38,870 nt of DNA from a virus, in IMG/VR virus record IMGVR_UViG_3300047550_002356, positions 1 through 38,870 of that record; one strand, given 5' to 3'. Each line of letters opens with the position of its first letter. Position 1 is the first letter of the stretch. Under the pieces are notes generated by a model. The model was not told the origin of the DNA. It made no database searches and saw only the letters and a list, made by a program, of their open reading frames with translations. A program made the position numbers and the translations under genes. Positions 12,058 to 26,617 of this stretch are shown here, one piece after another.

Positions 12058-12547
12058 ATCTTACATTTATATTTGAATGGTCAATAATATTTTTCCCCCC
12101 ACCGTATATTCTTCTTTCGCTATTCATTAAGAAATCTATCTGTCTTTTATCTTTATCTGTTTTGTTATCTTTATTTAATAATCCGGCAAAGTATATCTCT
12201 CTGTCATTTAATTTCATTTTAAGTAGCGTTTCTTCATCTTCGGTAGGAGCAGGGAATCTATATTCTTTGCTATCATCTATTAATGCTTTATTCAAAACCT
12301 GTACTGCTTTTATGGGTCTGCCCATTTCCCAATATTCATAATCACCTATTTCAAGATATATGTATTGCTTTTTATAGAATGATTTAGCCTTACCGTATAT
12401 TCTTATTATCCTAATAAAGTCTTCGAATAGTTTATCGTTATTAAATAACTTCCTTGTTGTGTATGTATGCGGAAATGTGTTTTGATAACTGACCGCATTT
12501 TTCCATACAGTATTATTTAATATTTCTTCCCAAGGTTTGCTATTCAT
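12050..12547 (-). CDS. Unknown protein of the PAPS-reductase/ParB cassette
   Basis: A 165-residue protein I cannot assign to a named family. Conspicuous segments are YLEIGDYEYWEMGRPI (about 64-79), LNKALIDDSKEYRFPAPTE (about 85-103) and the C-terminal SERRIYGGGKNIIDHSNINVRYE. The YWEMG segment next to conserved-looking charged residues suggests an enzyme or a nucleic-acid-binding protein rather than a structural one. Its start overlaps the stop of the PP-loop gene by 4 nt and its stop overlaps the IbrB-like start by 8 nt. Such double coupling implies stoichiometric synthesis and a shared complex or pathway with its neighbours. No signal peptide or membrane segment is present. Confidence 0.65.
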   Translation of the reverse strand: MNSKPWEEILNNTVWKNAVSYQNTFPHTYTTRKLFNNDKLFEDFIRIIRIYGKAKSFYKKQYIYLEIGDYEYWEMGRPIKAVQVLNKALIDDSKEYRFPAPTEDEETLLKMKLNDREIYFAGLLNKDNKTDKDKRQIDFLMNSERRIYGGGKNIIDHSNINVRYE

Positions 12548-13722
12548 AATCCATATATTTTTTCTGCTTCTTCAAGTGTTATTCCCAAGTCTTTTCTTTT
12601 TTTAATAGCCTCTGCCCTTAATACACTACTTTGTCTTCCTTTAAAATCTCCCCTTATAGCAACTCTGCATAATACTTTATATGATACTCCCGATAATGGG
12701 TGAGCATCTTCTTCTTCTATCTTTGCTTTTGTTTTATTTTTGTGCATACCGATATAAGAGTCTATCGTTGATTGCACTTGTACTTTGTAATCGTGGTCAT
12801 AACTATCTAATATGATATTAAGATATTCACTCCACTTTAAATCATCCGGCTTTACATTAGCATTCGAATATAAGTGAGTGTTACCATATCGCCAAGCGGT
12901 TGCTACTCCTTCAACTCTATTAATCATTTTATGCCATAATTCAGGGAAACATTCTGCATAAACCCACAATCCTCTTAATGGTTCTTCTCCGTATGGAGGA
13001 CATACCCTTTGAGTAAGAAACTTATTATTTAATCTTGTTTGATTAAATATATCATAGGTCTTATTATAATCCCATCCATATTTATTTACGCATAGCCAAA
13101 CATCTTCGCTTGACATATCATAAATAGGGAAACACCTATACTGATTGCTTGATGCCTCGCTTGTTGCCTGTATGTAAGAGTCATTCTTTTTTGTTGCTAT
13201 TACTTGAAACCTCCTTAAACTTTCTTGTGTTCTTATTCCTGTAAGCATAGCAATCCTTCCGTCTTTCCTTTCGTATAAGTATGGAGCAAACTCTTGAAAT
13301 GACATTCCTTTTTTAAAACGTGGATGGCTTGTTATTACATTATCCGGCAAATCCCTACACCATAAATCTTTCTTATCGCTATCCCAACAATACCAAAATG
13401 GTTCTTCATTTGAACAAGCATTACGGTGCTTAAATTCTAAACAAAACCATTTAAGATTTACATCTTTATTTTGCCTTACCCTTTCTACATATTCTATTGT
13501 AGGTGGATGTATTGCTTCCTCATCAAAGAATACTGCTTCTAATGGTAATCTGTTTTTTTCTTTTGCTACTTGTAGCGCAAGATTTAATACAGTAGTGCTA
13601 TCTTTCCCTCCCGAAAAACTAACCACAACTTTATCAAATGAGTCGTATATGTATCTTATTCTATTTAAAGCAGCATCATATACGTTATCCCCATCGTATT
13701 CTTTTTGCCTAATCCTTGCCAT
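12544..13722 (-). CDS. PAPS reductase-like PP-loop protein (IbrA-like)
   Basis: A 392-residue member of the PAPS reductase / adenine nucleotide alpha-hydrolase superfamily, close in layout to IbrA and DUF3440 proteins. The PP-loop SGGKDS sits at 37-42, followed by the beta strand EAVFFDEEAIHPPT (about 63-76) and by LTGIRTQESLRR (about 159-170), the region that binds the nucleotide in this superfamily. Several Cys residues (for example CSNEEPFWYC, WCRDLP, RCFPIYD, RVCPPYGEEP) could bind metal or carry sulfur. Family members activate or transfer sulfur or AMP; the substrate here is unknown. The start shares one base with the cupin stop (TAATG), and the end overlaps the next gene by 4 nt. Confidence 0.85.
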   Translation of the reverse strand: MARIRQKEYDGDNVYDAALNRIRYIYDSFDKVVVSFSGGKDSTTVLNLALQVAKEKNRLPLEAVFFDEEAIHPPTIEYVERVRQNKDVNLKWFCLEFKHRNACSNEEPFWYCWDSDKKDLWCRDLPDNVITSHPRFKKGMSFQEFAPYLYERKDGRIAMLTGIRTQESLRRFQVIATKKNDSYIQATSEASSNQYRCFPIYDMSSEDVWLCVNKYGWDYNKTYDIFNQTRLNNKFLTQRVCPPYGEEPLRGLWVYAECFPELWHKMINRVEGVATAWRYGNTHLYSNANVKPDDLKWSEYLNIILDSYDHDYKVQVQSTIDSYIGMHKNKTKAKIEEEDAHPLSGVSYKVLCRVAIRGDFKGRQSSVLRAEAIKKRKDLGITLEEAEKIYGL

Positions 13723-25652: not shown

Positions 25653-25994
25653 TTAATATATTGTCCATCCGTTAACTTCTGATATATACCAAAGTCTTTT
25701 AAATTTTACTTCCATTTTGTATCCCATAATTTCATTCAACTTGCAGATTGAGTGCATTAAAGATTGTAAATTTTCAAACGTGTACCTGTATTGGTTACCT
25801 AAATACCATTGAATTTTTTTGCCATTATCTAACTGCTCTTTGCAAGTGTTATGCATATCTGCATAAAACCTTATGCTATTTTTAAAATCATTTAATGTTT
25901 CAACGCCATCAAGTATTGTACGGTCATACATCGTAAATCCTTGCTTGTCGTTTGCTGCGTCATAGCACAACTGTTGTAATTTTTGCTTTTTCAT
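25653..25994 (-). CDS. First early gene downstream of the hammerhead, unknown
   Basis: A 113-residue protein with no recognised family, mixed helical and aromatic (FKNSIRFYADMHNTCKEQL; MGYKMEVKFKRLWYISEV). It begins about 33 nt after the predicted hammerhead cleavage site, so its mRNA 5' end would be generated by the ribozyme (a 5'-hydroxyl end). Leader AAATCAAACAAAATG, matching other early genes. Confidence 0.6.
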   Translation of the reverse strand: MKKQKLQQLCYDAANDKQGFTMYDRTILDGVETLNDFKNSIRFYADMHNTCKEQLDNGKKIQWYLGNQYRYTFENLQSLMHSICKLNEIMGYKMEVKFKRLWYISEVNGWTIY

Positions 25995-26021
25995 TTTGTT
26001 TGATTTGTGTGTTATAAAATT

Positions 26022-26077
26022 GGTTTAGACGGATTAGGCTAATCCGTTTCGGCTCATATAAGCCTCATCAGTAAACC
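26022..26077 (-). ncRNA. Type I hammerhead ribozyme
   Basis: The minus strand has the full hammerhead core. Stem I is GGTTTA / TAAACC (6 bp, open end), then CTGATGA, stem II GGCT/AGCC closed by TATATG (with a G-C pair next to the core), GAA, and stem III starting with A15.1: ACGGATTAGCCTAATCCGT, a 7-9 bp hairpin, then cleavage triplet GTC. Every core position (C3 U4 G5 A6 G8 A9, G12 A13 A14, A15.1-U16.1, C17) is present. Open stem I makes it type I. Predicted cleavage is between 26028 and 26027, about 33 nt before the first early gene and at the 3' end of the structured leader RNA. Confidence 0.88.
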
Positions 26078-26470
26078 TTATTGGTCTTCGCAATCCCATA
26101 CCGTTTCCGGTTTATGACCTATACCATCCGATGATTATAAAAATAATCGCTGCGCTTATCCTCTTGCTGATTGGCTGCGCATCATTGATACTGATTAATC
26201 CGGTAGGGCACTTGGTTATCGTGCATCTATTGTACTCCGGCTTTCGGTCATACTTGAGTTAGAGTGAGAGATTGTTACATACCCTATGCAGTAAGTAGGC
26301 AACCTTGTGTATTCCCTTCAAAGGTGGTTGTTACTGCATCGTGCTTTCGCTTTGTTACCTATACTTATAGGGGGTGATTTACATCAGCCTTGTGGGTATA
26401 TTATCCGCTAATCGCCTGTCAAAGAACTTCGGAACGTGGTCACCGTAGCAGCGTTCCATACCACTAATAT
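26028..26470 (-). ncRNA. Large structured non-coding RNA (about 440 nt), leader of the early operon
   Basis: A gene-free stretch of about 44 percent GC by my count (26041-26460), clearly above its neighbours. It has many hairpins on the minus strand: a nested arm pairing 26286-26294 with 26331-26339 (ATGCAGTAA / TTACTGCAT), inside it 26300-26304 with 26326-26330 (CAACC/GGTTG) and an inner CCTT/AAGG; GATTAT-TTTT-ATAATC (26133-26148); ACCG-GAAA-CGGT with a GNRA loop (26100-26111); GC-GAAA-GC (26343-26350); CCTATA/TATAGG (26358-26371); GGAACG/CGTTCC (26431-26457). It begins near a sigma70-like promoter and ends at the hammerhead. Large phage RNAs such as GOLLD or ROOL are the nearest idea, but I cannot match it to either. 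Confidence 0.7.
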
Positions 26471-26476
26471 ACACAC

Positions 26477-26506
26477 ATTATAATAAATAGCACAAAATAA
26501 TACCAA
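26477..26506 (-). promoter_or_regulatory. sigma70-like promoter for the structured RNA and early operon
   Basis: On the minus strand TTGGTA and TATAAT are 18 bp apart, close to the general sigma70 consensus. The spacer contains TGCTATTTA (26484-26492), the element also seen at late gene starts. The start point would be near 26470. It does not match the Bacteroidota TAnnTTTG type, so the reader polymerase is uncertain. Confidence 0.5.
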
Positions 26507-26596: not shown

Positions 26597-26617
26597 AGCG
26601 CATTGTCAATATGCGCT
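26597..26617 (-). terminator. Intrinsic terminator of the late operon
   Basis: AGCGCAT / ATGCGCT stem (7 bp, 7-nt loop), followed on the minus strand by a run of seven Ts (plus A run 26591-26597). It ends the structural and lysis transcript 50 bp after the endolysin gene and insulates the ncRNA region. Confidence 0.85.

Follow-up and report, generated by a model that had tools for sequence, protein, structure and literature searches.

A type I hammerhead ribozyme at the head of a viral operon and its relatives at phage gene seams

The locus and its ribozyme

The window, that is the whole stretch of DNA analysed here, is an IMG/VR virus record 38,870 bases long, with nearly all of its coding sequence on the minus strand. 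Between an operon containing an M15 peptidase gene and the start of the next operon, we find successively a terminator-like hairpin, a putative promoter, a non-coding leader, the ribozyme and a short A-rich stretch (Table 1). The sequence-only reading called this next operon early and suggested that the ribozyme could protect, trim or time its transcript; both are at most possibilities, the genes downstream of the ribozyme being mostly of unknown function. Neither the first operon gene nor the DUF932 gene had a relative in a search of IMG/VR. Elsewhere in the window, a PAPS-reductase-like / DUF3440 gene (12544-13722, minus strand) lies near ParB_N-domain and glycosyltransferase genes.

Table 1. 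Features of the operon head and of the ribozyme in the window.
Feature	Position	Strand	Remark
Terminator-like hairpin AGCGCATATTGACAATGCGCT followed by a T run	26597..26617	-	ends the operon containing the M15 peptidase gene
Sigma-70-like promoter (putative), TTGGTA-18-TATAAT, 10/12 match	26477..26506	-	such sites occur at chance-level number
Non-coding leader, 393 nt, from promoter-like site to ribozyme	26078..26470	-	G+C 0.435 vs 0.338 genome mean
Type I hammerhead ribozyme, complete	26022..26077	-	open stem I 6 bp, stem II 4 bp, stem III 8 bp (from A15.1-U16.1)
Stem I, GGUUUA / UAAACC	26077-26072 / 26027-26022	-	read from sequence
Catalytic core CUGAUGA (C3-A9)	26065..26071	-	invariant in alignment A1, where the search pattern demanded it
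Stem II, GGCU / AGCC, loop UAUAUG	26064-26061 / 26054-26051	-	read from sequence
Core GAAA (G12, A13, A14, A15.1)	26047..26050	-	read from sequence; alignment A1
Stem III, ACGGAUUA / UAAUCCGU	26047-26040 / 26036-26029	-	read from sequence
Predicted cleavage site after C17 (26028) of GUC; 5'-OH product from U26027	26027..26028	-	position from hammerhead fold
Post-cleavage leader on operon mRNA (predicted), 33 nt, A-rich	25995..26027	-	33 nt vs family median 26
First operon gene, 113 aa, ATG at 25994	25653..25994	-	search for relatives negative; DUF3785 matched weakly, under the cut-off

The sequence-only reading had proposed a complete type I hammerhead here, and our analysis bears this out. 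On the minus strand, from 26077 to 26022, the RNA reads GGUUUA-CUGAUGA-GGCU-UAUAUG-AGCC-GAAA-CGGAUUA-GCC-UAAUCCG-UC-UAAACC. When we applied the core definition given by Perreault et al. (2011; PMC3088659), every core position was intact in the window copy (C3 U4 G5 A6 N7 G8 A9, G12 A13 A14, the A15.1-U16.1 pair and H17). All 18 stem pairs (6, 4 and 8 bp) are present and Watson-Crick. Stem I carries the open ends and stems II and III are closed, which makes the ribozyme a type I hammerhead. The cleavage site, which had been placed between 26028 and 26027, agrees with the fold, and the position claimed for the element in the operon leader, 33 nt before the first gene, was confirmed, downstream of both the terminator-like hairpin and the promoter-like site.

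When both strands were scanned with hammerhead descriptors of types I to III, this was the single site in the whole window. None of 1146 dinucleotide shuffles of the window reached its score of 20 summed stem pairs, the best being 18 for type I and 19 for any type. Folded alone, the ribozyme adopts exactly the hammerhead shape (MFE -17.8, z -3.63, 0 of 200 shuffles). For fast cleavage, stems I and II of a hammerhead touch through their loops or a pseudoknot. Scoring canonical pairs only, we saw no signal of Watson-Crick pairing of this kind between loop II and the flanks of stem I.

Rfam models and the phage family

An Infernal run with the Rfam hammerhead models had been suggested as a check of the ribozyme. 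The outcome of such a covariance test depends on the model, as Rfam misses the site at its cut-offs while a model of phage relatives matches it strongly. At the Rfam 15 gathering cut-offs we obtained no match in the window, whether to a hammerhead, a tRNA, a pistol or any other Rfam RNA. The two best sub-threshold matches in the window were both hammerhead models, namely RAGATH-1-hammerhead (RF03152; 28.9 bits, gathering cut-off 56.3) and Hammerhead_3 (RF00008; 23.3 bits, gathering cut-off 48.5). By contrast, the covariance model R2, for which IMG/VR relatives were used and the window sequence held out, gave one match in the window, at this site, with 59.7 bits and an E-value of 4e-14, E-values from our models R1 and R2 being rough. 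The held-out match and the shuffles together rule out a chance motif, and the window ribozyme is a real, complete type I hammerhead. By Rfam's rule the window copy is a non-member of RF00008 and RF03152; by core and fold it is a hammerhead. Since Rfam at its curated cut-offs misses this copy, the suggested check would be a false negative in that form, and it is the held-out model that carries it. At the junctions of stems I and III, RF03152 is similar in sequence to the window; however, stem II of that model is a single pair and a hairpin lies upstream, neither of which is a feature of the window's family.

A pattern scan of IMG/VR, in which UUA/UAA, the core and GUC were fixed, gave 48 loci, all sharing one architecture. 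Model R1 found 1-6 copies per record in 34 records. The same model had zero matches in 29 records taken as controls because they share the M15 peptidase gene, and 50 records sharing the portal gene gave no convincing family-model match, so that the family model is specific. Fifteen relatives with intact hammerheads were likewise without a hammerhead match at Rfam gathering, and in the sources scanned no family member reached the Rfam 15 hammerhead models at that cut-off.

We recovered 59 distinct family copies, the window included. In their alignment A2, which was fitted to the model, 98.9% of pair cells are paired and both-sided (compensatory) changes occur at 12 of the 14 pairs. Cells with both-sided changes number 247 against 57.6 in shuffles, and pairing drops to about 30% once the partners are slid. 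Alignment A1 was not fitted to a model; there, 99.5% are paired and both-sided changes amount to 92 against 24.4 in shuffles, and its free pairs agree with A2. Judged from these sequences, the window copy is one of a large set of predicted phage hammerheads at gene seams, most of them uncatalogued. We also noted a same-family hammerhead on an 86-kb bacterial contig, possibly within a prophage (L080:2708-2788; Bdellovibrionales MAG contig JAFEAP010000004.1), which shares the window's GUCUAAACCAA 3' strand.

Placement from stop codon to ATG

In 58 copies the sequence reaches far enough upstream to place the stop of the preceding gene. It lies at the 5' edge of the ribozyme, a few bases from the start of stem I, in 44 of them and inside the ribozyme in 9 (53/58 in total). 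In these 9, the upstream ORF extends 10-23 nt into the ribozyme (e.g., L070:4135-4204, L244:840-911 and L246:885-952), and in some of them the stop is probably one of the UGA triplets in the core CUGAUGA. The cut falls 15-45 nt before the next ATG (ORF of at least 40 aa) in 47/57 copies, with a median of 26 nt, compared to 18% of random positions; these placement counts use mechanical ORF calls on copies that are not independent, and their null is random rather than intergenic positions. That null is generous because compact phage genomes push any intergenic element close to both neighbouring genes. The pattern is plain despite this, and across the family the ribozyme is a seam between two genes. 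As nearly all the relatives sit between genes, intercistronic processing is pointed to as their general job, and the family probably cuts phage messages into shorter pieces.

Two operons of small genes are especially dense. The first 6 kb of IMGVR_UViG_3300023278_000974 (L244) carries 6 hammerheads and 4 pistols within 5 kb, and IMGVR_UViG_3300017773_000009 (L070) carries 5 hammerheads and 3 pistols in one operon. In both, ribozymes alternate with genes at successive boundaries (10 and 8 per operon, respectively). The pistol ribozyme (RF02679) has another fold, yet it takes similar gene-boundary positions in these same operons. At three loci (L244:1211-1281, L070:4445-4515 and L244:47-118), the 3' product begins with a self-complementary stretch, e.g., UAUUGC-AAUAAU-GCAAU; its 5'-OH end would form a hairpin once freed, and this folding also competes with stem I.

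The window copy keeps one half of this arrangement. Its cut lies within the 15-45 nt range of the family. The nearest upstream stop (ORF of at least 40 aa), that of the M15 peptidase gene, is 589 nt before stem I, so the family placement of the stop is absent. Preceded by a terminator and a 393-nt leader and not by a gene, the window copy is an unusual family member. Among the other copies only one is clearly similar (L067; gap of 336 nt, cut 35 nt before the ATG). In L204 (5200-5530), a portal relative, M15 peptidase, terminator and new operon follow in the same order, but the leader is short and there is no ribozyme. As related phages exist without the ribozyme, that phage type can do without it.

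The leader and the proposed role of the ribozyme

According to the sequence-only reading, the ribozyme ends a long structured RNA. We found no support for this part. The leader gains nothing in folding over its shuffles (z -0.76), the z values of 120-nt windows that stop short of the ribozyme range from +1.7 to -1.2, and blastn found no leader homologue in phages or plasmids, nor was there one in the 50 portal-related records. We also looked for a small protein ending at the ribozyme and rejected it, the leader having short frames only, with an 18-codon open stretch before a TAA beside stem I.

Base composition and one motif nevertheless raise the possibility that the leader RNA is the product that matters. 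The hammerhead would then set the 3' end of a non-coding RNA of about 440 nt acting in trans or on RNA polymerase, the mRNA end being a by-product. Where the family has a gene, the window has this non-coding, G+C-richer leader, whose G+C of 0.435 is reached by 3% of genome windows. At 26457-26417 (minus strand) it holds a GGAACG/CGUUCC hairpin followed by a boxA-like GUUCUUUGACA (TTCTTTGACA, 26426-26417), and no other TTCTTTGACA occurs on either strand of the window. The motif resembles the boxA of rRNA leaders, although the boxA consensus of the likely hosts may differ, and it is no more than a lead. Hairpin and motif are a possible antitermination element. However, the motif was not seen at comparable places in relatives, and a wider pattern scan gave two matches, both chance-looking and inside other sequence. 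The absence of leader homologues in the sets searched and the unremarkable fold energy also speak against a functional leader RNA. Finally, the distance from cut to ATG in the window is that of the family, an argument for the mRNA rather than the leader RNA. We consider it unlikely that the leader is the product that matters.

The energy calculations also bear on a regulated switch, in which leader folding would block or allow stem I so that cleavage reports a signal or the speed of transcription. Folded within its leader context, the ribozyme is predicted to prefer other pairings, with stem I unformed (probability 0.03). The 3' strand of stem I, UAAACC, has a second copy upstream, and a leader UCAUCGG can pair with the core CUGAUGA. 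Yet stem I is also blocked in 15-42% of shuffled leaders, and many relatives without such a leader are equally low, with a median stem I probability of 0.06. As shuffled leaders and many relatives behave alike, the low in-context weight of stem I is not specific. The leader pairing does not go beyond shuffles or relatives and we rejected an anti-ribozyme switch; regulated cleavage seems to us very improbable.

The sporadic occurrence of the element suggests another explanation, an inactive or neutral passenger acquired by recombination from the intercistronic copy of another phage and having no present role. The window genome has a single copy, and its 50 portal relatives lack a convincing match. 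On the other hand, all core bases and all 18 pairs are intact, where decay would be expected without selection at such a size, and the spacing to the ATG is that of the family. We regard a passenger as very improbable.

We therefore retain as the likely reading that a type I hammerhead within the 5' leader cleaves itself and in this way cuts the leader off the operon mRNA; it is the same module that lies between genes in the family and here stands at an operon head. Self-cleavage chemistry is established for hammerheads in general. Starting from the observed fold, covariance-based family membership and placement, we infer the following for the window RNA. Transcription would start near the promoter-like site. 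As the polymerase passes, the nascent RNA would fold and cut itself after C26028. This would free a leader of about 440 nt, with the hairpins of stems II and III at its 3' end and a 2',3'-cyclic phosphate as the terminal group. The operon mRNA would begin with a 5'-OH and reach its first gene after an A-rich leader of 33 nt. Elsewhere in the family, the module lies directly at the stop codon and would cut between genes; in the window the cut would be made at the operon head. The benefit may be a defined 5'-OH end and a short leader free of upstream RNA, a 3'-protected leader RNA, or both.

A more ambitious version can be imagined, in which phages possess an RNA-processing system of hammerheads, sometimes with pistols, set in the stop-to-start seams of operons, the core sometimes giving the upstream stop. 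In the window the module would have moved to the operon head and would free a non-coding leader acting on transcription, e.g., by boxA-type antitermination. We find this version as a whole quite improbable.

The window ribozyme is a further member of the phage hammerheads described in 2011 (PMC3088659). That text describes phage and prophage hammerheads of types I-III, with clustering, proposes that they cut long phage transcripts into operon- or gene-length mRNAs, and reports activity in vitro for three hammerhead clusters, one triple array being active in E. coli as well. These hammerheads and the window copy have the same core, architecture class and association with phage genes, whereas the window copy heads an operon rather than lying between two genes. 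The nearest counterpart in the same text is HHphage of the haloviruses HF1/HF2, which like the window copy lies just upstream of the first gene of an operon. Here the distance to the gene is 13 nt, the transcript is early and polycistronic, and its 5' end has been mapped to at most 3 nt from the hammerhead cleavage site. HF1/HF2 is, however, an archaeal virus system with an altered core (inserted bases 2a and 2b), while the window has a consensus core and a 393-nt leader.

In the parts of the open-licence literature consulted, no earlier statement was found of a stop-to-start rule over a large family or of hammerhead-pistol alternation. A 2017 review (PMC6155905) calls the benefit of prokaryotic and phage hammerheads an open question. 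As Rfam cut-offs miss such ribozymes, phage genomes are probably under-annotated for them. Quantified over 59 copies, the placement from stop to ATG gives a sharp position rule, with the stop at the ribozyme edge and the cut about 26 nt before the ATG. With this rule and dense examples, including the multi-ribozyme operons, the role of phage hammerheads becomes directly testable.
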